Assembly (NCBI RefSeq): GCF_019285735.1
Contig: NZ_CP079107.1
Location: 1,550,001-1,614,000 of the forward strand
Origin: Paeniglutamicibacter sp. Y32M11
GTDB lineage: Bacteria > Actinomycetota > Actinomycetes > Actinomycetales > Micrococcaceae
Direction of reading: 5' to 3'
Length of the DNA: 64,000 bases
Under the pieces are notes generated by a model. That model ran no database searches. It saw only the letters and a program-made list of their open reading frames with translations, and was not told the DNA's origin. The position numbers and the translations under genes were made by a program. Shown in pieces: positions 6,813 to 21,868 of the stretch (its first letter is position 1; each line of letters begins with the position of its first letter).

Positions 6813-8039
<1,227 letters not shown>

Positions 8040-8059
8040 ATCGAAGTAAAAGCCACACC

Positions 8060-8107
8060 AAGGTGCCGGTGTTGTTCGTGCAGACGCGCGATCAACACCG
8101 GCACCTT
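8060..8107 (+). terminator. Terminator of sigA
   Basis: Perfect 15-bp stem (AAGGTGCCGGTGTTG at 8060-8074 and its complement at 8093-8107) with an 18-base loop, 20 bp after the sigA stop. The U-tract is weak (TGTGCTT), as is common in actinobacteria. Confidence 0.8.
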
Positions 8108-8185
8108 GTGCTTAACACCAGAAAACGAGCCAGTGGAGCATCACTCGGGTCCTTTACAAATCCGTGGCAAGGCACCTTAACTGCA

Positions 8186-8216
8186 GCGGGACCCCGGCAT
8201 GCTGCCAGGGTCCCGC
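8186..8216 (-). terminator. Hairpin downstream of the DUF7455 gene
   Basis: 9-bp perfect stem GCGGGACCC / GGGTCCCGC with a 13-base loop, 37 bp beyond the stop of the minus-strand gene at 8253. Together with the sigA hairpin it separates the convergent genes. Confidence 0.6.
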
Positions 8217-8252
8217 AATAAAATCTATTCGGCTTGGAGCCGAACGATCAGC

Positions 8253-8477
8253 TTAATCCTCGTCGTCGTAAACTGGCTTCTCGTAGAGTCGCGAAGTTTC
8301 GTCTTGCCATTCGGTAGTCAGGGGGCGCAGTTTTTCTTCTACGGAACGAGCGTGGTGGCCGCAGAAGAAGAGCTCGCCGCCGGAGGTCCCCAATACTGCA
8401 CGCACAAATGCTTGTGCACCGCACCGGTCGCAACGATCAAGAGCGTTCAGCTGCCGAGTTACTGTCGTCGTGGTCAT
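8253..8477 (-). CDS. Small DUF7455-type zinc-ribbon-like protein
   Basis: 74-residue protein: CDRCGAQAFVRAV, then FFCGHH, giving a CxxC...CxxH pattern that could hold one zinc. It resembles short actinobacterial proteins annotated as DUF7455. The ATG at 8477 is chosen over the in-frame ATG 15 bp upstream because AAGGAGG sits six bases before it. Such proteins often sit beside sigA in this phylum; the function is unknown. The C-terminus is acidic (YDDED). Confidence 0.8.
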   Translation of the reverse strand: MTTTTVTRQLNALDRCDRCGAQAFVRAVLGTSGGELFFCGHHARSVEEKLRPLTTEWQDETSRLYEKPVYDDED

Positions 8478-8676
8478 GATGACCTCCTTCATTCGATGTG
8501 TAACTAATACAACCAGCTAAACCTCATTTTGTTTCTCGATTAATTGCTCTTTCGCTGACCGCGTAGCTCACAGAGGGGTGAGGTGGCGCTCAATGATCCC
8601 GGGCAAACGCGAAATGACGGGCCCAGAGACTATTGTTGTTAGCGACGTTCCGAAGTTTTTGAGGAGTTTTACAACC

Positions 8677-10782
8677 GTGGCCCAAAGCAATGACTACAAC
8701 GCCCGACACCTGTCTGTTCTCGAGGGTCTCGAGGCAGTTCGCAAACGTCCGGGCATGTACATCGGCTCCACCGATTCACGTGGCCTCATGCACTGCCTCT
8801 GGGAAATCATTGACAACTCCGTTGATGAAGCGTTGGCCGGCCATGGCCAATCCATCAACGTGCTTTTGCACCCGGACGGATCGGTAGAGATCCACGATGA
8901 TGGCCGCGGCATCCCCGTAGACATCGAACCAAAAACCGGGCTATCGGGCGTGGAAGTCGTTTTCACGAAGCTTCACGCGGGTGGCAAATTTGGTGGCGGC
9001 TCCTACACCGCTTCCGGTGGTCTGCATGGCGTCGGTGCTTCGGTGGTCAATGCGCTGTCCGCGCGCCTTGACGTCGAGGTTGACCGCGGAGGCAAGACGT
9101 ATGGAATGCAGTTCCGCCGTGGGGAGCCGGGGCGCTTCACCGACAAGGGAAAGCCCAAGGCTGACGCCACCTTTGAAGCGTTCTCCTTGGAGTCGGTGCT
9201 CGACGTGGTGGGTAAGGCTAAGCGAGGCGTCACCGGAACACGTGTGCGCTACTGGGCTGACCGGCAGATTTTCACTCCCGATGCAAAATTCTCCTACACG
9301 GAACTGCAGGCGCGAGCTCGACAGACCTCCTTCCTTGTTCCAGGGCTAAAAATCACCCTTCGCGACGAGCGGGGATTGGCCGGAACACCTGGCGAAGATG
9401 GACCATACGAGGAAATCTTCCAGCATGATGGTGGTATTTCCGAGTTCGTGGATTACCTCGCCAACGACGGTGCCGTGACAGATATTTGGCGCTTCCAGGG
9501 ATCGGGAACCTTCAAGGAATCGGTTCCGGTCATCGATGGTTCCGGACATAGCCGCATTACCGAGGTTGAACGCACCTGCGAGGTGGACGTTGCCCTGCGT
9601 TGGGGCATCGGATACGAAACAAATCTCCGTTCTTTCGTCAACATCATTTCCACGCCGAAGGGTGGAACTCACCAGACCGGGTTTGATCAGGCACTGCTGA
9701 AGACCTTCCGCAAGGTCATTGAAGCCAACGCCCGCAAGCTCAAGGCTGGCAACGACAAGATTGAGAAGGACGACGTTGCTGCCGGGTTGACCGCGGTACT
9801 TACGGTCCGGTTGGCGGAACCCCAATTCGAGGGTCAGACCAAGGAGATCCTTGGCACATCGGCCGTACGGCTCATCGTTTCCAAGGTGGTCGAGAAGGCA
9901 CTGACCGAGAAGTTGAATTCTTCTGCCAAGGGGGAGAAAACGCAATCGGCCATGTTGCTGGAGAAGGTTGTTAGCGAAATGAAGTCGCGCATTTCCGCGC
10001 GAGTTCACAAGGAAACGCAGCGGCGTAAGAACGCTCTGGAAACCTCATCGCTGCCCACCAAACTGGCCGATTGCCGCAGCACCGATACGTTGAAAACCGA
10101 ACTGTTCATCGTCGAGGGTGACAGCGCACTGGGTACGGCTCGCTTGGCTCGGTCCTCGGACTTCCAGGCGCTGCTGCCGATTCGCGGCAAGATCCTGAAC
10201 GTGCAGAAGGCTTCGGTGGCAGATATGCTCTCCAACGCCGAGTGCGCCGCCCTGATTCAGGTTGTTGGCGCCGGATCCGGACGAAGCTTTGATATTACTC
10301 AGGCGCGCTACGGCAAGGTGGTGCTCATGACGGATGCAGACGTTGATGGAGCACATATTCGTACCTTGCTTCTGACGCTCTTCTTCCGTTACATGCGTCC
10401 CATGGTGGAGTCCGGGCGAGTTTATGCCGCAGTTCCACCGCTTCACCGGGTTGAGGTGATCAATCACGGAACCAAGGAAAACGAGATGGTGTACACCTAC
10501 TCGGAGAACGAACTGCATCAGGTATTGGGCGCCCTGGAAAAGGCGGGTAAACGCTACAAGGAACCGATCCAGCGTTATAAGGGCTTGGGCGAAATGGACG
10601 CCGACCAGTTGGCGGAGACCACCATGGATCCACGGCATCGCACACTGCGCCGCGTAGGACTCGAGCATGCGGAGTCGGCGGAGCGGGTATTCGATCTGCT
10701 GATGGGTTCTGACGTTGCACCGCGCAAGGAATTCATCATTTCCGGTGCGGAACGTCTTGAACGAGACCGCATCGACGCGTAG
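8677..10782 (+). CDS. parE: DNA topoisomerase IV subunit B (ParE, GyrB paralogue)
   Basis: ATPase subunit of a type IIA topoisomerase. The GHKL ATPase has IIDNSVDEALAG and DDGRGIPV; the transducer domain follows; the TOPRIM domain carries EGDSALGTA and MTDADVDGAHIRTLL. EGDSALG instead of GyrB's EGDSAGG, and the total of 701 residues, point to the second actinobacterial enzyme rather than gyrase. The GTG at 8677 is chosen because GAGGAG precedes it and homology begins at NARHLSVLEGLEAVRKRPGM. The partner subunit parC is at 19.2-21.9 kb on the other strand. Confidence 0.92.
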   Translation: MAQSNDYNARHLSVLEGLEAVRKRPGMYIGSTDSRGLMHCLWEIIDNSVDEALAGHGQSINVLLHPDGSVEIHDDGRGIPVDIEPKTGLSGVEVVFTKLHAGGKFGGGSYTASGGLHGVGASVVNALSARLDVEVDRGGKTYGMQFRRGEPGRFTDKGKPKADATFEAFSLESVLDVVGKAKRGVTGTRVRYWADRQIFTPDAKFSYTELQARARQTSFLVPGLKITLRDERGLAGTPGEDGPYEEIFQHDGGISEFVDYLANDGAVTDIWRFQGSGTFKESVPVIDGSGHSRITEVERTCEVDVALRWGIGYETNLRSFVNIISTPKGGTHQTGFDQALLKTFRKVIEANARKLKAGNDKIEKDDVAAGLTAVLTVRLAEPQFEGQTKEILGTSAVRLIVSKVVEKALTEKLNSSAKGEKTQSAMLLEKVVSEMKSRISARVHKETQRRKNALETSSLPTKLADCRSTDTLKTELFIVEGDSALGTARLARSSDFQALLPIRGKILNVQKASVADMLSNAECAALIQVVGAGSGRSFDITQARYGKVVLMTDADVDGAHIRTLLLTLFFRYMRPMVESGRVYAAVPPLHRVEVINHGTKENEMVYTYSENELHQVLGALEKAGKRYKEPIQRYKGLGEMDADQLAETTMDPRHRTLRRVGLEHAESAERVFDLLMGSDVAPRKEFIISGAERLERDRIDA

Positions 10783-10794
10783 TCCGAGAGTATG

Positions 10795-10840
10795 AAGTGA
10801 TCGCTCAGATCCCCACCCCAGGGAATCTGAGCGATCACTT
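10795..10840. terminator. Bidirectional terminator parE / blaR
   Basis: 16-bp perfect stem (AAGTGATCGCTCAGAT at 10795-10810, complement at 10825-10840) between convergent genes; it is followed by TCTAGTT on the plus strand. Confidence 0.8.
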
Positions 10841-10893
10841 TCTAGTTAAAGCGGGGAAAGACCTCGCATATTTGCCGATAGTCCGCGGAGAAT

Positions 10894-11856
10894 TTAGCCG
10901 AAAAGTCCGGGCGCCACGAGCATCGTGGTGGGCAACGCCAAGAGTAAGAGCGCCGCAGCGAGGATCAAATCACGCACCGAGGCAGTCAACGGGGACTTGG
11001 GGGTAAGCAGTCTGCGTAGACGTTGCGAGGTTAACTCCTCGGTGGGAGCTCCGCCGGTGCCAGCGTTGGAGATTGCCGCCGGGGCCTTTGCATCGGGTTC
11101 TCCCAAGGCGCCGGTGGCAACCGTGAGCAATGCCCGAAGTAGTTCGGCCGGTGAGACCTCGCGCAGGGCCGCATCGTCGGCCAGCATCTCCACGAGATCT
11201 TGGACGGCGGTCAGTGCCAGCTTTGACGTGGGGAGCCAGGGGAGTGCGTCGTGCCAGGAAGTAAAGGCCAGCAGCAGTAGATCGTGGCGTTGCTCCAGAT
11301 GAGCCTTTTCATGGGCCAGAACTGCCTGGAGTTCTTCTTCGCTCAGGCGTTGGACAAGTCCTCGAGAAAGCACCGTGACGGAACCGGAAAAGCTCGGCAG
11401 GCAGTAAGCGATGGGAATTTCGTGGTCAAGTACGAGCGTTCCGGGGTTGAGCGTAGATTCCTGGGTGAGGAGGGAGAGAATATGGCGATGCCGAGATCGC
11501 TGCCGCGAGATCCGCCAGGCTGCCCTAATGAGGGTGAGTACCAAATGGAAGCCCAGCAGGGCTGCGGTGCTCAGGGCGAAAATGTGGATGGTTCCTGGGG
11601 AGGCAATGGACGGGTCGCCCAAAATGAGCTTGACCCCGCGCTCGAGGGCCGTCAAAAGTGTGTCGCCCAGAGAGTCCAGTCCCCAGAAAAGCATTGCTCC
11701 GATCATCGATAGTCCACCGGCCAGTGCGATCGATTGCCACATCACCATGGCGGCGAAGGGCGACCTGGCTGTCCATTGGGCACGCGAAAGCACAACAGGG
11801 ATGGGCCATGCCAACAAGATGGCCAGCCCTGCCAAGAGATATGAAGTCAGCAGCAC
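10894..11856 (-). CDS. blaR: BlaR/MecR-type M56 membrane metallopeptidase, short form
   Basis: 320-residue integral membrane protein with the M56 zinc peptidase motif HEKAH (His182, Glu183, His186) in AVLAHEKAHLEQRHD. Hydrophobic segments lie near residues 3-22, 36-58, 92-112 and 296-316. Unlike staphylococcal BlaR1 there is no penicillin-binding sensor domain, the same short layout I recall for M. tuberculosis Rv1845c, so its signal is unknown. Family role: cleaves the partner BlaI repressor when activated. The GTG start is 24 bp after the blaI stop with no clear ribosome site, suggesting translational coupling. Confidence 0.85.
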   Translation of the reverse strand: MLLTSYLLAGLAILLAWPIPVVLSRAQWTARSPFAAMVMWQSIALAGGLSMIGAMLFWGLDSLGDTLLTALERGVKLILGDPSIASPGTIHIFALSTAALLGFHLVLTLIRAAWRISRQRSRHRHILSLLTQESTLNPGTLVLDHEIPIAYCLPSFSGSVTVLSRGLVQRLSEEELQAVLAHEKAHLEQRHDLLLLAFTSWHDALPWLPTSKLALTAVQDLVEMLADDAALREVSPAELLRALLTVATGALGEPDAKAPAAISNAGTGGAPTEELTSQRLRRLLTPKSPLTASVRDLILAAALLLLALPTTMLVAPGLFG

Positions 11857-11880
11857 GTGGGGTGACCGTGCCGATTCTCG

Positions 11881-12255
11881 CTAGGCGCTACGTGGTGTTT
11901 CGAGAAGTACACGCAAAGACTGTGCTTCCTCGGCGGAAATTCCACCGATGAAGCGAGCCAACACGGCTTCGCGATCCAGCACGGTGCCTAGTGCTTCATT
12001 CATGAGGGATACGGTGTGCTCTTCGCGGCTCGTCACCGAGGTGTAACGGTGCGGGCGAATGTCACGTTCGCGGGCGACTAAGCCCTTCTTTTCCAGTCGT
12101 GCCAGCACCGTCAGGACGGTGGTCACGGCAAGTTCTTTGCCTTGTGCATCGCCGGGAGCGGCGAGTTGATCGCGAAGTTCATTGGCCGTGAGCGGGGATT
12201 GTGCATCCCAAAGTAGATCCATTACTGATCGTTCAAGGTCGCCAAGAGTGGCCAA
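11881..12255 (-). CDS. blaI: BlaI/MecI/CopY-type transcriptional repressor
   Basis: 124-residue winged-helix repressor. The N-terminal half matches the family (LERSVMDLLWDAQSPLTANE, then TTVLTVLARLEKKGLV as recognition helix and wing), and the C-terminal half is the dimerisation and cleavage region. The start appears to be TTG at 12255; the nearby ATG is out of frame. It heads a blaI-blaR operon and is divergent from cydA. Two inverted repeats at 12366-12382 and 12387-12405 are the obvious binding sites. Family knowledge: repressors of this group autoregulate and are inactivated by proteolysis through BlaR. Confidence 0.9.
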   Translation of the reverse strand: MATLGDLERSVMDLLWDAQSPLTANELRDQLAAPGDAQGKELAVTTVLTVLARLEKKGLVARERDIRPHRYTSVTSREEHTVSLMNEALGTVLDREAVLARFIGGISAEEAQSLRVLLETPRSA

Positions 12256-12365
12256 TCTTCATTCCTAACAAAGTATTCCAAGGCCCCTGCCTCGTAGGTA
12301 GGAACCGGCGGGCGTCGTGATATACATCGCCCGCTAGGTCCAGTTTACCGTGTTTCGGCGATATG

Positions 12366-12382
12366 TTCTACAGTGGGTAGAA
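12366..12382. promoter_or_regulatory. Candidate BlaI operator 1
   Basis: TTCTACAGTGGGTAGAA: perfect 6-bp half sites with a 5-base spacer. It overlaps the 3' end of TATGTT (12362-12367), a possible cydA -10. A possible minus-strand promoter for blaI (TAAACT, 12341-12346) would have its -35 in this repeat. Confidence 0.7.
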
Positions 12383-12386
12383 ACAA

Positions 12387-12405
12387 GTTCTACGGAACGT
12401 AGAAC
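12387..12405. promoter_or_regulatory. Candidate BlaI operator 2
   Basis: GTTCTACGGAACGTAGAAC: 7-bp half sites with the same 5-base spacer as operator 1. The centres of the two repeats are 22 bp apart, about two helical turns, so two dimers would sit on the same face of the DNA. It lies about 54 bp before the cydA start. Confidence 0.7.
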
Positions 12406-12458
12406 TTCAAGTTGCGGGCCGCACTGTACCCGCGAATTTCTGCATTGAAGGGCTTGGC

Positions 12459-14033
12459 ATGGATGCTCTGGAAATTGCCAGATGGCAATTTGGAATCACC
12501 ACCGTCTATCACTTCCTGATGGTTCCGCTGACGATTGGCCTGGGCCTAGTGGTCGCGGTACTTCAGACCGTCTGGCACCGCACCGGTCAGGAAGAATACC
12601 GCAGGATGACGAAGTTCTGGGGGAAACTCTTCCTCATCAACTTCATCATGGGCGTAGCCACCGGCATCGTTCAGGAATTCCAATTCGGTATGGCCTGGAG
12701 CGAATATAGCCGTTTTGTTGGAGACGTCTTCGGCGCCCCGCTGGCAATGGAAGCGCTACTCGCATTCTTCGTAGAATCAACATTCCTCGGATTGTGGATC
12801 TTCGGCTGGGACCGATTGCCCAAGCGCATCCACCTCGCCAGCATCTGGATCGCCTCGCTGGCCAGTATCTTCTCGGCCTACTTCATTCTTGTGGCCAATT
12901 CCTGGATGCAGCACCCCGTAGGAACAGAAATGGTGAACGGGCGCGCGGTCATGACCGACGCCTGGGCGGTCTTTACCAACAACACCGCACTGGTCACCTT
13001 CCCCCACACCATCTTCGGCGCCTTCGCCGTGGCAGGTGGATTCCTGCTCGGCATTTCCTGGTACCACCTCTACAAGCGGCGCCAAGGCGGAATCGATACC
13101 GTTGATGCGGCAGGCAACGTGGTCATTGGAGAGTCGGCCACCCTGGGTCGAAACCGCGACAAAGTCGACTACCAGGTCTGGATCAAGTCCCTTCGCATCG
13201 GCGCAACGGTCGCCATGGTCGCGTTTATGGGTGTTGCCCTATCCGGGCATGCCCAAGCACAGCTGATGATCGAGCAACAGCCCATGAAAATGGCTGCCGC
13301 GGAGGCCGCCTGCCACGACGGCACCGGCTTTTCCCTGCTCTCCGTCGGTGACCTGCGCAGTGGTGGGGCGACCACCTGCGACGACGTGGTCGGCGTCTTT
13401 GAAATCCCGGGGCTGCTCTCCTTCCTCGCCAACAACAACTTCACCACCGAAGTTAAGGGCGTCAACACACTGGTACCCGAATACCAGGCCAAATACGGGA
13501 CCCACCTTCCGGATGACCCGATGTACGGGGACCGCGCCGGTAGCGAAATCAACTACCTGCCGGTCATGGAAGTCACCTATTGGGGTTTCCGTCTGATGAT
13601 CACACTTGGTGGACTCTCCGCGGTTGCCGCAGCAGTGGCCCTATGGCTCACGCGTAAGGGGACCGTGCCGCACAGTAAATGGATCTCCCGTCTGGCACTG
13701 TTCGGTATGTTGGCACCCTTTGGTGCGAACTCCGCCGGTTGGATTTTCACCGAGATGGGCCGCCAACCCTTTGTGGTGGCACCGAATCCGAGCTTCGAGG
13801 GCATCGACCAGGTCTTCATGTATACGGCCGCGGCGGTTTCCCCGGGGGTGAGCGCGGGGGAGATGCTCTTCTCACTGATCAGCCTCACCTCGATCTATGC
13901 CTTCTTGCTGGTCGTTGAGGTCGTCCTGCTCACCCGCTACATTCGCGGTGGAATCGGCTCGGCCATGCCCGAGCTCCACGATCGCCCCGACGATGATCAG
14001 AAGGACACCGACGTGTTGTCCTTCGCCTACTGA
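12459..14033 (+). CDS. cydA: Cytochrome bd quinol oxidase subunit I
   Basis: Catalytic subunit of the high-affinity bd oxidase in the cytoplasmic membrane; oxidises quinol and reduces oxygen without pumping protons. His18 in TVYHFLMVPLTIGLG is the expected haem ligand of the high-spin site, His in FPHTIFGAFAVAGG the haem b558 ligand, and the Q-loop end reads GRQPF rather than the usual GRQPW. 524 residues, about nine membrane segments. ATG start with GAAGGG upstream. First gene of cydA-cydB-cydDC; the promoter region carries two BlaI-type repeats. Confidence 0.96.
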   Translation: MDALEIARWQFGITTVYHFLMVPLTIGLGLVVAVLQTVWHRTGQEEYRRMTKFWGKLFLINFIMGVATGIVQEFQFGMAWSEYSRFVGDVFGAPLAMEALLAFFVESTFLGLWIFGWDRLPKRIHLASIWIASLASIFSAYFILVANSWMQHPVGTEMVNGRAVMTDAWAVFTNNTALVTFPHTIFGAFAVAGGFLLGISWYHLYKRRQGGIDTVDAAGNVVIGESATLGRNRDKVDYQVWIKSLRIGATVAMVAFMGVALSGHAQAQLMIEQQPMKMAAAEAACHDGTGFSLLSVGDLRSGGATTCDDVVGVFEIPGLLSFLANNNFTTEVKGVNTLVPEYQAKYGTHLPDDPMYGDRAGSEINYLPVMEVTYWGFRLMITLGGLSAVAAAVALWLTRKGTVPHSKWISRLALFGMLAPFGANSAGWIFTEMGRQPFVVAPNPSFEGIDQVFMYTAAAVSPGVSAGEMLFSLISLTSIYAFLLVVEVVLLTRYIRGGIGSAMPELHDRPDDDQKDTDVLSFAY

Positions 14034-14063
14034 TCCTTCGAAATCGAAGAAAGGATACTTTCC

Positions 14064-15086
14064 GTGGAATTTCTACCCACCTTGTGGTTCATCCTCATCG
14101 CCGTACTCTGGGGCGGCTACCTCTTCCTCGAAGGCTTCGACTTGGGTGTAGGCATGCTCATGAAAACCTTCGCCAAAAATGAAAAGCAACGCCGGGTGCT
14201 GCTCAATACCGTCGGCCCCGTCTGGGACGGCAACGAAGTCTGGCTGATCACCGCCGGCGCGGCAACCTTCGCCGCGTTCCCATACTGGTATGCCTCGCTC
14301 TTCTCTGCCCTGTACATCCCGCTGACGCTCGTTCTGATAGCGCTAATCTTCCGTGCCGTGGCATTCGAATATCGGGGCAAGGCACAAACCTCCGCAACAC
14401 GAAACGCCTGGGACTGGGCCATTGCGCTGGGCTCCTTCACCGCAGCCTTCGGCGTCGGGGCGATGCTGGCACTGAGCACCACGGGACTCCCGTTGAACGC
14501 CAACGGCGACCGGGTGGGTGGGCCCTTCGCATGGTTTACCGGGTACGCGGTCCTCGGCGGGCTCGGGGTGGTGGCCTTCTGCCTCCTCCAGGCCCTGGCC
14601 TTCTTGGGTTTGAAGACCGACGGCGAGATTCGACACCGGGCCGGCAAACTGCTGGGTCGCTGGCTCCCGGTAGGCCTCGCCCCGTTGGCTGCCTGGGCGA
14701 TTGCCGTGGCCTTGCTCAACCACAGCGCCGCGGCCCTCGCCCCGTTGGCCGTGGCCGTGGCAGCGCTACTCTTCGCCTGGATCCACGCCCGCAAAAACCA
14801 TGAGGGCCGCGCCTTTATTGCGATGGGCATCTTTCTACTGGCCGGGGTTGGCACGATCTTCCTCGCCGCCTATCCCAACGTCCTACCCTCCACCATCGAT
14901 CCGGCCTACAACCTGACGGTGTTCAATGCCTCCTCATCGCCCTACACGCTGCGGCTTATGAGCGTCGTGGCGGCGATCGGACTGCCGCTGGTCCTGGCCT
15001 ACCAGAGCTGGACCTACTGGGTATTCCGCAAGCGCATCATTGAGGCGCACATCCCCGATGCTCACGCCGTGACCCCCATCGTCTGA
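14064..15086 (+). CDS. cydB: Cytochrome bd quinol oxidase subunit II
   Basis: 340-residue membrane protein, partner of CydA in the bd oxidase dimer. The N-terminus (LWFILIAVLWGGYLFLEGFD) and the GPVWDGNEVWLI segment are diagnostic. About eight to nine hydrophobic segments. GTG start with GAAAGGA upstream, 30 bp after cydA. The following cydDC gene is 24 bp downstream, consistent with one operon. Confidence 0.96.
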   Translation: MEFLPTLWFILIAVLWGGYLFLEGFDLGVGMLMKTFAKNEKQRRVLLNTVGPVWDGNEVWLITAGAATFAAFPYWYASLFSALYIPLTLVLIALIFRAVAFEYRGKAQTSATRNAWDWAIALGSFTAAFGVGAMLALSTTGLPLNANGDRVGGPFAWFTGYAVLGGLGVVAFCLLQALAFLGLKTDGEIRHRAGKLLGRWLPVGLAPLAAWAIAVALLNHSAAALAPLAVAVAALLFAWIHARKNHEGRAFIAMGIFLLAGVGTIFLAAYPNVLPSTIDPAYNLTVFNASSSPYTLRLMSVVAAIGLPLVLAYQSWTYWVFRKRIIEAHIPDAHAVTPIV

Positions 15087-15110
15087 CCCAGGCCAGGAGA
15101 AAACCGCACC

Positions 15111-18100
15111 GTGAAACCCATACTCCCCGCAGGCACAGGTTCCCGCATGGTTCTGGCCCTGCTCGGCGGCCTCGCCGCACTCAAGGCCGTAGGCCTGGTG
15201 CTCATCGCCGATGCCCTTGCCACAGCCATCAGCCAGCTCGCGGCCGGCGGGGAGCTGGATCTCCAGCGCCTGCTGGTGCTGGGCCTGATCGGCACCCTGC
15301 TGCGGGCCGGCGCGGTGTGGGGCACCGAATTGGCTGCGCACCGCGCGGGGCTCGGTGCCAAGGAACAACTGCGCTCCAAACTTCTGGCCACGGGCCTGCG
15401 CGGCAGGGTTTCCGGGACCGACCCGGGCCAGGGGGCACTGGCAGCGCTGGCCAGCCGTGGGTTGGACGGGCTGGATAACTACTACACCAAGTACCTTCCA
15501 GCATTGGTCGCTACCCTCGTGATCCCGATTGTCATCGGGGTACGGATCCTGCTGGCCGACTGGGTATCGGCGCTCATTGTGGTGCTCACGGTGCCGTTGA
15601 TCCCGGTCTTCATGATCCTGATCGGACTGCACACCCAGGACCGCATTAAGGCGGCGGCCGCCGGGATGGATCGGATCTCGAACCACCTGCTGGAATTGGC
15701 GCAGGGATTGCCGGCCCTGATCGGTCTCCGCCGAGCCAAGGGAAAGGGCCGTGCCCTGGCCAAGGTCTCCGAGGACTACCGCGAATCCAGCATGAAAACG
15801 CTACGCACCGCCTTCCTCTCCGGACTGGCCCTGGAACTGATTGCCACGATCTCCGTCGCGGTGGTCGCGGTGTTTATCGGCGTGCGCCTGGTCTACGGGC
15901 ATATGGGTCTGGAAGCAGGGCTGCTCGCGCTGATCCTCGCCCCGGAATGCTACCTGCCGCTGCGTGCCTTGGGTGCAGCATTCCATGCCTCCGAGGATGG
16001 AGTTGAGGCGCTGCAACGCACGGAGGGTTTCATCAATTCGGGCACTGTTGTGGCACCCTCCGCCACCGGTCCGGCACCGGCAGCTTCCCCCGCAGTCTTG
16101 GTTCTGGAAAATGTCTCGGTCCGGCACGCCGGACGTACCGAAGCGGTTCTCAAGGACCTGAACCTAGAACTGTCAGCCGGATCGGTGTTGGTGCTGGATG
16201 CCGCCAGCGGCAGCGGGAAAACCACCCTTTTGCAGGCCGTGCTCGGGCTGCTTGAATCGGGGGCGGAAGTCACCGGAAGCATCCAGCTGGATCCGGCGCG
16301 CACCGTGTTCATCTCCCAGCACCCGAGGTTCACCGAGGCCACCGTCGCAGCGGAAATCCGCCTGCATGCGGGCGCGGCACTGACCGAGGCCACCCTCCAG
16401 AAGGTGCTGAAGGATGCGAATATCACGCATTTGGCGGACCGAAACCTGATGGACTGCAGCCCGGGGGAGCTGCGCCGCATCGCCGTGGCTCGGGCCCTGG
16501 CAGCGGTGGCTGCCAATCCACGGATCAACCTGGTGCTGGCCGATGAACCGACGGCACACCTCGATGCGAACTCCGCCCAGCGTATCCGCGTGGCCATGAC
16601 AGGACTGCGCCCACGGTGCGCGCTGCTGGTGGCCTCCCACGACCGCGACCTGGCCGCCATGCTGCGCCGAGAGGTCGGCGAGTCGCCTGCTGAGATCCTT
16701 TACCTCGCTGCCGCAGATGAGAACGGCACGCACCCTGATGCCGCCCACGCAGAGGCTGCGCCCGCACCACTTTCAGCCGCTCAGTCCCGTGCGGTGACGG
16801 ATAAGCGGCGTGCTGCCCACTGGCGTTTGCTGGGTTCGATGCCCTGGTTCCGCCGCGGCATGTTGCCAGGACTACTGCTGGCCGCGGCCGCAGCGATCTT
16901 CGGCGCCGGGCTCACCGGGGTCTCCGGCTGGCTGATTGTCACCGCCAGCCATCAACCCCCGATGCTGCACCTGATGGTCGCCATTGTGGGGGTGCGCGCC
17001 TTCGGCATCGGACGCGCGGTGCTGCGTTACACGGAGCAATTGCGGGTGCATGACGCGGTGTTGGGCTTCGCTTCGAACCTGCGCCAGCGACTCTGGGACG
17101 CACTGGTCGCCCAACCCCACGGCTGGGGCCGACTCACCCGCTCCGGTGCCGCTCTGGGCCACCTGATCGCCGAGGTTGATGAGGTGCGCGACGCCGTGCC
17201 CCGGGTCGTGGTTCCGCCGGTGGCCGGGATCGCCACCTGGCTGGCCGTCACCATAGGGATCGGTTTCTGGACCCCCGCCGCCCTGCCACTGGCGCTCGGG
17301 CTGGGGCTCACCGCCTTCCTGCTGTTGCCACTGGCGGTACTTGCGGTGGAAAGGCACAGCACCGTGGAAACCAGCAAGCACCGCATGTGGCTGGGAGCCC
17401 GGGTGCCCACGCTGCTGCGTGCGGCCGGGGACCTGCGGGCCAACGCGGCGACCGAACGCGCCTTGGCGGAGTTTTCCGCCGCCGATGCCCGGGCCACGGG
17501 ATCGCTGCGGGCCGCGGCCCGCGGTGCCGCACTGGCCCAGGGTGGGGCGGTGCTGCTCTCCTCGGCGGCGGCCGTGCTGGCCGTGGGGCTGGTGGGCAGC
17601 GGTGGAGAGGCAGCGGCGGTTGCCGGCCTGCTGTTGTTGGCCCTGGGCGAGCCCATCGCGAACACGGCCGCCTCGGTGCAGCAGCTGCCACAACTAAACG
17701 ACGTGCTCCGGCGCGTGTGGGGCAACCTCGCGGGGGAGACGCCCACGTCCCGCGACGATGATGCCCAAGCGCCTGCCGGTGTCCCGAATGCCCCGATGGG
17801 CATCCGCCTGCGCGATGCCAGTGCCGGTTGGGAACCGGGTGCGCCGGTCTTCGAGAATGCAAATGTGGAGGTAGCATCCGGAAGCTGGGTGGGACTGACC
17901 GGTCCCTCGGGTTCGGGGAAATCCACGATGCTGGCCACCTTCCTCGGGGCCCTGGCACCGTTGGCCGGCAGCCTACAAGTCAGGCACGGCCAGGACGATT
18001 GGGTCGATGCCACGGCGGCCGATGTCGCGGCGGTGACCTGGTGCCCGCAGGAGGCCCACCTCTTTGACTCCTCGGTCCGTTCCAACCTCGGCTTGGGTCG

Positions 18101-18473
18101 TGAACTCGATGACCAGCCCACCGACGGTGAGCTGCGAAGGGTGCTGGAACAGATCGGCCTGGCACGGTGGCTCACGACCCTGCCCGGTGGGCTGGATGAA
18201 CGCATCGGCTCGGGCGGTCACCATCTCTCGGGCGGACAGCGCCAACGCCTGGCCGTGGCTCGCGCCCTTCTCGCCCGGTCCAAGGTGCTCCTGCTCGATG
18301 AACCGACCGCCCACCTGGGCGCCGACGAAGCCGTCGAATTGATGGCGGACCTGCGCGGGGCGCTGCGCGACTGCGCGGTAGTGGTCGTTACCCACGATGC
18401 CGCCGTCGCGGCCCTGGCAGATCACGTCGTGAACCTGAGCGAGCTGAAGACCCGGGTGCCGGCGGGAGTCTGA
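15111..18473 (+). CDS. cydDC: CydDC fusion: heterodimeric-type ABC exporter in one polypeptide
   Basis: Cysteine/glutathione-type thiol exporter needed for cytochrome bd assembly, here a single 1120-residue chain. The CydD half has membrane segments (about 1-300) and an ATPase with ASGSGKTTLL (about 363-372), a degenerate signature CSPGELRR and LVLADEPTAHLD. A linker near 545-565 leads to the CydC half: membrane segments 580-860, Walker A GPSGSGKSTML (about 930), canonical LSGGQRQRLAVARALL and LLLDEPTAHL. The degenerate first signature means one of the two ATP sites has a non-canonical signature motif. GTG start with AGGAGA. In mycothiol-containing actinobacteria the exported thiol is not settled. 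Confidence 0.93.
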   Translation: MKPILPAGTGSRMVLALLGGLAALKAVGLVLIADALATAISQLAAGGELDLQRLLVLGLIGTLLRAGAVWGTELAAHRAGLGAKEQLRSKLLATGLRGRVSGTDPGQGALAALASRGLDGLDNYYTKYLPALVATLVIPIVIGVRILLADWVSALIVVLTVPLIPVFMILIGLHTQDRIKAAAAGMDRISNHLLELAQGLPALIGLRRAKGKGRALAKVSEDYRESSMKTLRTAFLSGLALELIATISVAVVAVFIGVRLVYGHMGLEAGLLALILAPECYLPLRALGAAFHASEDGVEALQRTEGFINSGTVVAPSATGPAPAASPAVLVLENVSVRHAGRTEAVLKDLNLELSAGSVLVLDAASGSGKTTLLQAVLGLLESGAEVTGSIQLDPARTVFISQHPRFTEATVAAEIRLHAGAALTEATLQKVLKDANITHLADRNLMDCSPGELRRIAVARALAAVAANPRINLVLADEPTAHLDANSAQRIRVAMTGLRPRCALLVASHDRDLAAMLRREVGESPAEILYLAAADENGTHPDAAHAEAAPAPLSAAQSRAVTDKRRAAHWRLLGSMPWFRRGMLPGLLLAAAAAIFGAGLTGVSGWLIVTASHQPPMLHLMVAIVGVRAFGIGRAVLRYTEQLRVHDAVLGFASNLRQRLWDALVAQPHGWGRLTRSGAALGHLIAEVDEVRDAVPRVVVPPVAGIATWLAVTIGIGFWTPAALPLALGLGLTAFLLLPLAVLAVERHSTVETSKHRMWLGARVPTLLRAAGDLRANAATERALAEFSAADARATGSLRAAARGAALAQGGAVLLSSAAAVLAVGLVGSGGEAAAVAGLLLLALGEPIANTAASVQQLPQLNDVLRRVWGNLAGETPTSRDDDAQAPAGVPNAPMGIRLRDASAGWEPGAPVFENANVEVASGSWVGLTGPSGSGKSTMLATFLGALAPLAGSLQVRHGQDDWVDATAADVAAVTWCPQEAHLFDSSVRSNLGLGRELDDQPTDGELRRVLEQIGLARWLTTLPGGLDERIGSGGHHLSGGQRQRLAVARALLARSKVLLLDEPTAHLGADEAVELMADLRGALRDCAVVVVTHDAAVAALADHVVNLSELKTRVPAGV

Positions 18474-18510
18474 TCCTCGACTCCGGGCGGACGTCGTCGG
18501 TGACCCGGGT

Positions 18511-18567
18511 GAAGCCCGCGGCACCTGCCCGTTCATGCGGCTATTTGCCGGCGGCGTCGCGGGCTTC
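18511..18567. repeat. Inverted repeat after cydDC
   Basis: 10-bp arms GAAGCCCGCG (18511-18520) and CGCGGGCTTC (18558-18567). The right arm is inside the 3' end of the convergent gene. It may act as a terminator for cydDC, but the 37-base loop and lack of a T-run make this weak. Confidence 0.35.
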
Positions 18568-19059
18568 GAGGGCGGTCACGATCGCAGACACATCGAAGGT
18601 CCTGGAGTTCAGTTCGATCACCACACCGTGAATGCTCCAAATCTTGAGGAAGGGCTGGATCCCTCGACGCAGGTAGACATAACGCTCGACGTCGTGATAC
18701 CGGATTGTTCGGACATAGCGGAAGGCGGTACGGAGGACGACTTCATCTTCTCGAATGATGAGATACCAGTTGGCGTAGATGAACACCAGGAACGATCCGG
18801 CAAGGAATAAGACGAATCCGCAGATCTGCATCGGCAGGGCGTCGCCGGATTCCACGCCGCTCCACGAAGAGACGAGGATGAACAACAGCCCGATTAATAG
18901 CACCAACCAACCGATGATCGCAACGATTTTCGGCTGTCGGATCGCCTCCCTGATCTTCTTGTCCCTGTTCGGCCAGCGCTTTGACGACCATCCGATGAAC
19001 GTGATCAGGGAAAAAACGAATACGCCGATCCCGATGTACCACCAGGTCGTTTCCGGCAT
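18541..19059 (-). CDS. Unknown small membrane protein with PH-like C-terminal domain
   Basis: 172 residues. An N-terminal membrane segment (about 6-24), then a charged loop, then two hydrophobic segments (about 45-65 and 76-97), then a soluble beta-rich tail (YLIIREDEVVLRTAFRYVRT, WSIHGVVIELNSRTFDV) that resembles the bacterial PH-like domains after membrane hairpins. I do not recognise a named family. ATG at 19059 is preceded by AAAGAGG; the longer frame to 19140 lacks support. A perfect 19-bp palindrome lies 25 bp upstream. Confidence 0.65.
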   Translation of the reverse strand: MPETTWWYIGIGVFVFSLITFIGWSSKRWPNRDKKIREAIRQPKIVAIIGWLVLLIGLLFILVSSWSGVESGDALPMQICGFVLFLAGSFLVFIYANWYLIIREDEVVLRTAFRYVRTIRYHDVERYVYLRRGIQPFLKIWSIHGVVIELNSRTFDVSAIVTALEARDAAGK

Positions 19060-19083
19060 GCCAAACCTCTTTCGTGGGGGAAA

Positions 19084-19102
19084 CATCGTGCACTGCACGA
19101 TG
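19084..19102. promoter_or_regulatory. Perfect 19-bp palindrome
   Basis: CATCGTGCACTGCACGATG, two 9-bp arms around a single C. It lies 25 bp upstream of the membrane-protein start (19059). This symmetry and tight centre fit a dimeric regulator site better than a terminator. Confidence 0.5.
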
Positions 19103-19129
19103 ATACGCGGACGGTCGGGCGCGCAGAGA

Positions 19130-19177
19130 GCAAGCGCCACCTCCGTCCCCTGCGGCAGGAACGGGTGCGGCGCTTGC
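19130..19177 (-). terminator. Possible parC terminator
   Basis: 9-bp arms GCAAGCGCC (19130-19138) and GGCGCTTGC (19169-19177), 24 bp beyond the parC stop on its strand. The loop is 30 bases and no U-tract follows. Confidence 0.45.
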
Positions 19178-19201
19178 CGTGGCTGGTGCCCGTGTTTGCT
19201 G

Positions 19202-21868
19202 CTACCCGTCCAGTAACGAGTCCTGAATGACTACCCGGCGGGCAGGTTCAACCTCAACCACACCGGAATCGGCAAACGGTAGCGTATCGACCTCGGGACG
19301 AACCAGCGGCGCACGAGTTGTGGTGCTCGGTGCGGGCAGCTGCTCGGCCGCCGCCACCGCGGCCTCGGGGGCGGTGGCGGGTGCTGCCCCGATATCCGGG
19401 GAACCGCCCAAAAGGTCGATGCCCTGAGCCAACGGAACACCCGAACCATCACGCTTGGCATACTCGGTGGGCAGCGCCCGCACCACACCGGCGGCCGACG
19501 AGGCCCGCGCCGGACCGGCACCGGCAAAGGCGAGCTCCAGATGGTCCTCACCCTTGAGGAAGCGGTGCGCACGCACGCCTCCGGTGGCCCTACCCTTGGC
19601 AGGGTATTCCGCGAAATCCGTCACCTTGACCGAGTGTGAGGCGGTGCCCGGCAGGGTATTAGAACCCGTGGCGATCGAAACGAACACCGGTGCCTGAGCG
19701 GCCGCTTGAACCACACCGAAGAAGATGACCGAATCATCGGCACCCAACTTGATGCCCGCCATGCCACCGGCCGTGCGTCCCTGCGGGCGGACGGCCGAGG
19801 CGGCGAAACGCAAGAGTTGCGCCCCGCGCGTGGCGAAGACCAGATCCGCATCATCCCCGGCCACCGCGGCGCCCACCACTTGGTCCTTGTCCTTGAGCGT
19901 GATGGCTTCCCACTCATCGCGGTTCAGCGGGTAGTCCGGGCTCAGCCGCTTCACCACGCCATTGGCCGTTCCCAGGGCCACCACCGCATCCAGCGGGACG
20001 AGGGCAATCATCCTTTCGCCCTTGGCCAGTTGGGCGAATTCGTCTATTTTTACGCCGCCGGCCAGCAGCGGGAAGCCGTTGGACGGCGGTAGCAGTGGCA
20101 GGTCAACTACCTGCAGCCGCAGCATGCGTCCGCTGGAGGTAATCCCGCCAATTTCCGCCCGGGCGGTGGTGCACAGCGTTGAGGCGAGCACGTCGTGCTT
20201 GACCCTAGCGCCGGTGGCTTCCAAAACGTCGGTGGAGGAGGCGCGGGCCACCTGCCCGGAGGCTGAGAGCAGCACGCGGCACGGCTCGTCGGCGATTTCC
20301 AGACTCAGCGGCGCTGCCTTACCGGTGCCCACCGCGGCTGGCATGGAGGTGCCCTTCAGTGGGGCGCCGGATTCGGATTCCAGCAAGATGGTGCGGCGCG
20401 GGGTGGCGAATTGTTCGCTCATCGCCCGCAGCTCGCCGGAGACCACCTCGCGCAGCAGGGTATCGGAATCGAGGATGGCGCGCAGCTCCGCGATCGCCTC
20501 CTGCAGTTCCGCGGCTTCCTTTTCCAATTCCAACCGGGAGAACTTGGTCAGCTGGCGCAGTCGCAGCTCCAGGATGTGGTTGGCCTGCAACTCGGAGAGG
20601 TCGTAGATGGCCATGAGTCGTTCGCGAGCCTGGGCCGTCTCCTCGGAGGAACGGATGATGGCGATGACCTCGTCGATGTCCACGATGGCGATCAGCAGAC
20701 CCTCCACCAGGTGCAATCGGTCAAGCTTCTTCGCTAGCCGGTGTTCGGTCCGTCGTCGCACCACCAGCAGGCGGTGATCCACATAGACGGTGAGCAGTTC
20801 CAGCAGTCCCATGGTGCGTGGCTGGCCCTCGACCAGGGCCACGTTGTTGATGCCGAAGGAATCTTCCATCGGGGTGAACTTAAACAGCTGGGCCAGCACT
20901 GCGTTGGGGTTAAAGCCATTTTTCAGCTCGATCACCAGTCGCAGGCCGTGGTTGCGGTCGGTCAAATCAACCACGTCGGCGATGCCGGTGAGCTTTTTGG
21001 CGTTAACCGCATCCTTGATCTTCTCGATGACCTTTTCCGGGCCGACCATGTAGGGCAGCTCGGTGACCACCAGACCGGCGCGGCGTGCGGTGATCTGTTC
21101 CAGCTCCACCTTGGCGCGGGTCTTGAAGGTGCCGCGTCCGGTGCGGTAGGCATCGCGGATGCCGTCGAGGCCAACAATCTTGCCGCCGGTGGGCATATCG
21201 GGGCCGGGGATGAACTTCATGATGGACGCCAGATCGGCGTCCGGGTCGGCAATCAGGTGCAATGCCGCGGCAATGACCTCGCCGAGGTTGTGTGGTGCCA
21301 TGTTCGTGGCCATACCCACGGCGATGCCGGTGGTGCCGTTGACCAACAGGTTGGGGAACGCCGCCGGGAGCACCGAGGGCTGCATGAACTGATTGTCGTA
21401 GTTCGGAACGAAGTCAACAACGTCTTCGTCAAGGTTCGCGGTCATGGCCACGGCGGATGCACCAAGCCGCGCCTCGGTATAACGCGGGGCGGCCGGTCCA
21501 TCATCCAGCGAGCCGAAGTTTCCGTGTCCATCGATCAGTGGCAGACGCAGCGCGAAGCCCTGACTCATGCGCACCATCGCATCATAAATGGCGGTGTCGC
21601 CGTGCGGGTGCAATTTGCCCATGACCTCGCCGACCACGCGCGCGCTTTTGACGTGGCCCTTCTCCGGGCGCAGACCCATCTCGCTCATCATGTACAAGAT
21701 GCGGCGCTGCACCGGCTTCAGCCCGTCACGGGCATCGGGCAGGGCGCGGGAGTAAATCACCGAGTAGGCATACTCCAGGAAGGAGCCCTCCATTTCGGTG
21801 GTCACATCGATATCAACAATGTGCTCCACGAAATCCGCGGGTAGTGGTTCGGGCTTTTTGCGCGCCAT
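19202..21868 (-). CDS. parC: DNA topoisomerase IV subunit A (ParC, GyrA paralogue)
   Basis: DNA-cleaving subunit of a type IIA topoisomerase, 888 residues. The winged-helix domain has the quinolone-determining stretch [17 protein letters not shown] (88-104) and the catalytic Tyr130 in [10 protein letters not shown]. Residues 380-480 are the coiled-coil arm. The C-terminal wheel (500-830) has no GyrA-box (QRRGGKG type), only a weak [11 protein letters not shown], so it is called ParC rather than GyrA. The C-terminal 70 residues are Ala/Pro-rich. It pairs with parE at 8.7 kb. ATG start, GAGG 13 bases upstream. Confidence 0.9.

Follow-up and report, generated by a model that had tools for sequence, protein, structure and literature searches.

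A BlaI-type repressor and an M56 metallopeptidase beside the cytochrome bd genes of Paeniglutamicibacter: predicted operators, candidate regulon and a proposed respiratory role

The BlaI family of repressors owes its name to antibiotic resistance. In Paeniglutamicibacter sp. Y32M11 (family Micrococcaceae), the genes of a BlaI-type repressor and of a membrane zinc metallopeptidase of the M56 type lie divergently from the genes of cytochrome bd oxidase, within a stretch of 64,000 nucleotides (positions 1,550,001 to 1,614,000 of contig NZ_CP079107.1) that is referred to here as the window; the genome consists of one contig of 4,173,408 bases. The arrangement raises the question of what such a pair controls, and what it senses, beside a respiratory oxidase. 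The analysis presented here makes it likely that BlaI represses a regulon of respiratory, haem and copper genes, and that the M56 protein, which has no sensor domain, relieves this repression under impairment of the respiratory chain. Proteins classed by their part in antibiotic resistance would then be seen, throughout a large bacterial family, as regulating respiration, and the reading comes with operators that are defined and a regulon that can be tested.

Predicted operators between blaI and cydA

The divergent intergenic region between blaI and cydA is 203 bp long and holds two inverted repeats of the form TTCTAC-N5-GTAGAA (Table 1). These repeats had been pointed out in a preliminary description of the locus, and both are present with perfect half-sites; the distance of 22 bp given there is correct from start to start, the gap itself being 5 bp, and the spacers, described as identical, agree in length and differ in sequence (AGTGG and GGAAC). 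The description had also judged a chance origin unlikely, and the genome bears this out: the exact pattern occurs six times against 0.06 expected (base composition of the window, 4,173,408 bases), while the reversed pattern, counted as a control, occurs once. The 10-base core is found exactly at eight places (1.8 expected). A scan of the window allowing up to three mismatches gave no enrichment (9 matches, 6.9 in shuffles).

The repressor is a member of the BlaI/MecI family, with 79.3 bits for the Pfam family Penicillinase_R (PF03965; cut-off 22.6), and is the sole match to that family in the 4.17-Mb genome. Its closest solved structure is 2g9w (E 4.9e-43), an entry titled 'conserved hypothetical protein' which we take to be BlaI of Mycobacterium tuberculosis; the chains of MecI (1sd6) and of the penicillinase repressor (1sd4) match it at E 1.3e-07 and 3.5e-05. 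Membership of the CopY/TcrY copper repressors, of which a cysteine metal motif is a feature, was rejected, because the protein scores 29 bits against the NCBIfam CopY_TcrY cut-off of 121.95 and contains no cysteine.

Linkage and operators were followed in 80 named loci of relatives, kept from 583 confirmed BlaI loci; the two nearest are from Paeniglutamicibacter. The M56 gene adjoins blaI in all 80 and a divergent cydA is present in 70. Each of these 70 loci carries an exact operator; when one mismatch is allowed, the region between blaI and cydA holds at least two sites in 66 loci and one in the other 4, the commonest start-to-start spacing of tandem sites being 24-25 bp, and no further exact site was found in the 836,609 bases that flank the 70 loci. 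Each of the 10 loci without an adjacent cydA has exactly one site (at most one mismatch) within 400 bp upstream of blaI. The best 30 loci of the family, a sample from groups overlapping those of the 80 and not independent of it, have M56 beside blaI in 30 and cydA in 28, with at least two such sites in all 28 and one in both loci that lack cydA. Of another 20 family loci, 14 have an adjoining cydA, each with at least one site; five of the remaining six have one site and the sixth (L262, genome G011) has none. A displaced cydA keeps its tandem pair, with one site left at blaI, in two genomes of one genus (G004, loci L169 and L265; G035, loci L407 and L266), and likewise in Arthrobacter sp. AL12 (L380), which makes three displaced copies in all. 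A check of the repeats in related genomes had been proposed in the preliminary description; they stay with cydA across the family, even where cydA is away from blaI.

Could the palindromes belong to another regulator, BlaI being an unrelated neighbour? Such a reading could appeal to the fact that BlaI was assigned to the palindromes from sequence. The distribution of sites speaks otherwise. A BlaI match was found in 55 of 61 family genomes, of which 53 were counted as having an orthologue (G044 by synteny, locus L261), G011 and G041 being set aside as distant matches only. Exact sites number 281 in the 53 genomes (24 for the reversed control) and 3 in the 8 genomes without an orthologue (2 for the control). 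Since site number follows the presence of blaI, and a site is kept at blaI where cydA is not adjacent (10 of 10 named loci), ownership by another regulator was rejected and is hardly credible. On these genomic comparisons, the predicted operators and the blaI-M56-cydA linkage are well supported, and so is the control of cydA by BlaI through the tandem pair.

Among 14 distant genomes outside the family, a related palindrome (TAC-N5-GTA core with at least five of six pairs, counted with no control run) lies upstream of blaI in 7. Matches to cydA stand next to blaI at L274-L277, and at L283 the match lies downstream of M56, so that the linkage is wider than the family; a broad regulon under TTCTAC-N5-GTAGAA is, as judged from predicted sites, seen only within it. 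In the class-level relative L277, TACTAC-N5-GTAGTA takes the place of TTCTAC-N5-GTAGAA between blaI and cydA, which suggests operator drift.

Table 1. Features of the blaI-cyd locus (window coordinates; ORF, open reading frame; ABC, ATP-binding cassette)
Feature	Position	Strand	Basis
M56/M48-type membrane zinc metallopeptidase, 320 aa, candidate antirepressor	10894..11856	-	HExxH and Pfam matches
BlaI-type winged-helix repressor, 124 aa, TTG start	11881..12255	-	Penicillinase_R 79.3 bits
Operator 1 (predicted), TTCTACAGTGGGTAGAA	12366..12382		exact palindrome; half-sites invariant in 5/5 aligned sequences of genus
Operator 2 (predicted), TTCTACGGAACGTAGAA	12388..12404		exact palindrome; half-sites invariant in 5/5 aligned sequences of genus
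cydA, cytochrome bd oxidase subunit I	12459..14033	+	Pfam Cyt_bd_oxida_I E 1.7e-151
cydB, cytochrome bd oxidase subunit II	14064..15086	+	Pfam Cyt_bd_oxida_II E 3.8e-101
cydDC, fused two-module ABC exporter/assembly factor, 1120 aa	15111..18473	+	two ABC_tran and one ABC_membrane stretch in one ORF

The operon, initially described as cydABDC, does contain the cyd genes; CydD and CydC are encoded by one fused ORF, and the order is cydA-cydB-cydDC. A gyrB/parE-type topoisomerase gene (named by eye, window 8578-10782) adjoins the M56 gene and has a match in 68 of the 80 named loci, which indicates that the neighbourhood is old; a gyrA/parC-type gene (also named by eye, 19202-21868, minus strand) lies beyond the cyd operon. 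A terminator scan of the blaI-cydA region found none, and an Rfam scan of 10000-19500 at gathering scores gave no match.

Candidate targets beyond cytochrome bd

Elsewhere in this genome, exact sites lie 65 bp upstream of the flavohaemoprotein gene hmp, before a Pyridox_ox_2 protein gene divergent from an APP1 phosphatase gene, before a universal stress protein gene, and before a run of genes for a 216-residue protein, CopC and CopD/Caa3_CtaG. Sites with one mismatch precede sucC (sucCD, 577447), a gene for a 116-residue membrane protein, ctaB/tkt (1731405), ctaE-qcr and the atp operon. One-mismatch sites at 690599, 1550983, 1991013, 2443587, 3706435 and 4134527 have no assigned role; those at 2443587 and 3706435 lie inside ORFs and that at 4134527 directly past the end of one. 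The hemQ gene of this genome (2661084-2661734) has no site directly upstream among the matches listed.

Conservation of the targets was assessed in the best 30 loci of each search, counting upstream sites with at most one mismatch. A site was found at ctaE in 20 of 30 loci (shuffled total 0.05), at atpB in 21 (shuffled 0; 17 at 820-986 bp and 4 nearer), at CopC in 18 (10 exact; 0.02 loci expected) and at HemQ in 25 (20 exact; expected 0). Genomes without a BlaI orthologue that entered these samples have no site, namely G033 at ctaE, G014 at atpB, and G033, G011, G005 and G041 at CopC.

The genes behind exact sites were examined for 40 sites away from blaI, picked in 13 genomes among the matches listed. 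Their neighbours are hemQ (9), hmp (6), a gene for a 134-residue membrane protein (6), Pyridox_ox_2 (4), a gene for a 116-residue membrane protein (3), YceI (2), a gene for an 86-residue protein (2), group III truncated haemoglobin (2), copper genes (2), an ABC transporter gene beside what was read as a SufR-like regulator (2), displaced cydA (1) and qcrC (1). Assignments were verified by tblastn, using a single query for each, except for the copper pair (L173 by Pfam DUF1775, L187 by lying 823 bp ahead of CopC) and the ABC pair (L180 assigned by reading, L185 being 95% identical to L180). The queries for Hmp, Pyridox_ox_2, HemQ, YceI, CydA and the cytochrome c domains of QcrC were identified by Pfam and that for truncated haemoglobin by structure 2ig3; for the ferrochelatase gene that follows hemQ, Pfam confirmation comes from L155 only. 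Small proteins recur behind exact operators (L161 and L166, of 134 and 115-117 residues and membrane-like; L163, of 86 residues), and searches of them in Pfam and NCBIfam gave nothing over cut-off. They are candidates for new respiratory factors.

The genes, the predicted operators, the candidate regulon and its co-occurrence with BlaI are thus demonstrated at the level of sequence, and the respiratory role suggested in the preliminary description gains from the finding that the motif which marks cydA marks other respiratory genes too (ctaE-qcr and atp).

The M56 protein and its signal

The M56 protein carries HExxH as HEKAH (residues 182-186), in which H182, E183 and H186 are invariant. It scores 30.9 bits for Peptidase_M56 (cut-off 31.0) and 41.9 bits for Peptidase_M48 (cut-off 20.3); a phmmer search against PDB gave a best E of 0.2. 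In the AlphaFold model (mean predicted local distance difference test score 87.8), long helices span residues 33-63, 89-130 and 292-314, with more helix within 2-25, which we read as four putative membrane passes. The protein combines a zinc-protease HExxH with a multi-helix fold, as do BlaR1 (M56) antirepressors. A penicillin-binding sensor domain was sought at its C-terminus: there is no Pfam match, and the last long helix ends at residue 314 of 320, so that search and model agree with the earlier statement that a beta-lactam sensor is missing.

This bears on whether the locus serves a classical beta-lactam response, in which M56 would sense cell-wall damage or beta-lactams, BlaI would guard resistance, and respiration would be secondary. 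Family membership fits such a role, as does the joint rise of blaI-blaR and cydAB of M. tuberculosis under amoxicillin-clavulanate, given in the relevant part of PMC5473688. Against it stand the missing C-terminal sensor domain and the conserved targets, those identified being genes for respiration, haem, copper or nitric oxide or genes of unknown role; moreover, no beta-lactamase was seen by eye among the ORFs of 8000-21000 of the window, no genome-wide search having been made. Beta-lactam sensing as the main role was rejected on the sensor and the targets, and we regard it as highly improbable. With the motif at haem, copper, nitric-oxide, main oxidase and ATP synthase genes, it is probably the respiratory chain, and not antibiotics, that the M56-BlaI pair monitors.

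A cysteine, C152, stands in the motif A-Y-C-x-P about 30 residues before HExxH and is invariant in all 78 readable proteins of the 80 named M56 loci; it is kept in 17 of 23 more distant M56 proteins, the other 6 having Thr, Ser, Ala or another residue. As a guess, it may be the sensing residue. Its invariance would suit a pair that senses nitric oxide or haem limitation directly, cytochrome bd being one nitric-oxide-resistant or haem-economical output, and so would hmp, group III truncated haemoglobin and hemQ behind 6, 2 and 9 of the 40 sampled sites. The ctaE-qcr, atp and copC operons are marked as well, although a regulon for nitric oxide alone would have no use for them, and we consider direct sensing of this kind unlikely.

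According to the reading preferred here, repression of respiratory, haem and copper genes relieved by M56, BlaI dimers would bind TTCTAC-N5-GTAGAA, and through the tandem pair they would repress both cydAB-cydDC and their own genes, blaI-M56. Outside this locus, single sites in the genome or the family would control hemQ-hemH (haem), copC-copD/ctaG (copper, oxidase assembly), ctaE-qcrCAB and the atp operon, together with hmp and truncated haemoglobin (nitric oxide) and the small membrane proteins. The protease would become active once too few electrons reach oxygen through the haem-copper oxidase, with low copper or haem, nitric oxide and inhibitors as candidate triggers, and active M56 would inactivate BlaI, derepressing the backup oxidase along with parts and cofactors of the main chain. 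From the make-up of the regulon and data on M. tuberculosis, we infer the release of BlaI by M56 and a failing haem-copper oxidase as the cue.

Several points weigh against this reading. Loose forms of the motif are not enriched in the genome (83 matches with up to two mismatches against 218 for the reversed pattern; 50 for the 10-base core with up to one mismatch against 154 reversed), and since they are rarer than the control, each one-mismatch site rests on conservation alone. At each target, the site is missing in some BlaI-bearing genomes. The difference in site number between genomes with and without BlaI (Mann-Whitney p 5.9e-6) ignores kinship, as no phylogenetic correction was applied. 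A scan of 12240-12470 found no sigma-70-like promoter. Outside the family, the core was found upstream of ctaE in 0 of 14 genomes and upstream of atpB in 0 of 10. In M. tuberculosis, amoxicillin-clavulanate raised blaR-blaI and cydAB and lowered ATP synthase and bc1 genes (PMC5473688, in the part concerned), so that co-induction is not uniform there. Finally, BlaI binding, repression, its polarity, proteolysis of BlaI by M56 and the signal are matters that we infer for Paeniglutamicibacter, and a basis of this kind also counts against the reading.

Comparison with known regulators

Statements on published work in this section refer to the relevant passages of the cited papers. It was reported that BlaI of M. 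tuberculosis binds the promoters of cytochrome bd and ATP synthase (PMC5473688, citing Sala 2009) and, with negative regulation, the promoter of Rv1303, which precedes the atp operon (PMC12565901), in line with the link to ATP synthase given in the preliminary description; sigC and atpH were named as members of its regulon (PMC8265638). The same description had called the proteolytic release of a repressor of cytochrome bd an unusual means of sensing respiratory or membrane stress; the M. tuberculosis promoter binding makes the arrangement less so (PMC5473688). In a copper-starved sigC mutant of M. tuberculosis, cyd and rv1303-1305 were up, most differences being silenced by copper, and blaI was discussed among the regulators affected (PMC7924339). 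Under copper deprivation, cydABDC, qcrABC and ATP synthase genes were co-induced in a chalkophore mutant, and Q203 reproduced a published pattern for cydAB and ATP synthase (PMC12140626); the main text of that paper was found to use neither 'regulator' nor 'transcription factor'.

It is possible, and put forward tentatively, that BlaI with a sensor-less M56 protein serves actinobacteria widely as a gauge of how well the haem-copper oxidase works. Copper or haem shortage, nitric oxide or inhibitors would make the oxidase fail, the protease would then be activated and remove BlaI, and genes of the backup oxidase and of the main chain would be induced together with those for ATP synthase, haem synthesis, copper handling and nitric-oxide defence. 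If so, BlaI-M56 could be the regulator responsible for the joint induction of cyd, qcr and atp genes that copper loss brings about in M. tuberculosis. It would also be a candidate explanation of how actinobacteria notice that a copper-dependent oxidase is failing and turn to cytochrome bd, and the family includes harmless relatives suited to testing this. Given the M. tuberculosis precedent, the cytochrome bd link itself is less novel; new here are the predicted operators across the family and the targets among haem, copper and nitric-oxide genes. A literature search limited to open-licence PMC papers turned up, among the papers listed, no account of a BlaI respiratory regulon in Micrococcaceae.

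The staphylococcal pairs BlaI/BlaR1 and MecI/MecR1 likewise consist of a repressor and a membrane metalloprotease, but the pair described here has no penicillin-binding sensor domain and its candidate targets are respiratory. The PetR/PetP copper switch of Synechocystis (PMC7896320, a commentary) also joins a BlaI-family regulator and a BlaR1-family protease in exchanging electron-transport proteins; its targets, unlike those considered here, are plastocyanin and cytochrome c6, and PetP was proposed to act on PetR with copper present, whereas cytochrome bd would be expected to rise here when copper is short. SigC of Corynebacterium glutamicum activates cydABDC, with a defective aa3 oxidase, as under copper deprivation, as the speculated stimulus (PMC7337898), and is an extracytoplasmic function (ECF) sigma factor, unlike the BlaI-type repressor. 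BlaI (Rv1846c) and BlaR (Rv1845c) of M. tuberculosis are alike in the closest structure, in a BlaR without beta-lactam sensor and in reported promoter targets at cytochrome bd and ATP synthase (PMC5473688). Operators predicted in silico at the cyd and atp operons agree with that regulon in a comparison confined to targets. In the present case, by contrast, blaI-M56 adjoins cydA with tandem operators, and ctaE-qcr, hemQ-hemH, hmp and copC are added as candidate targets.
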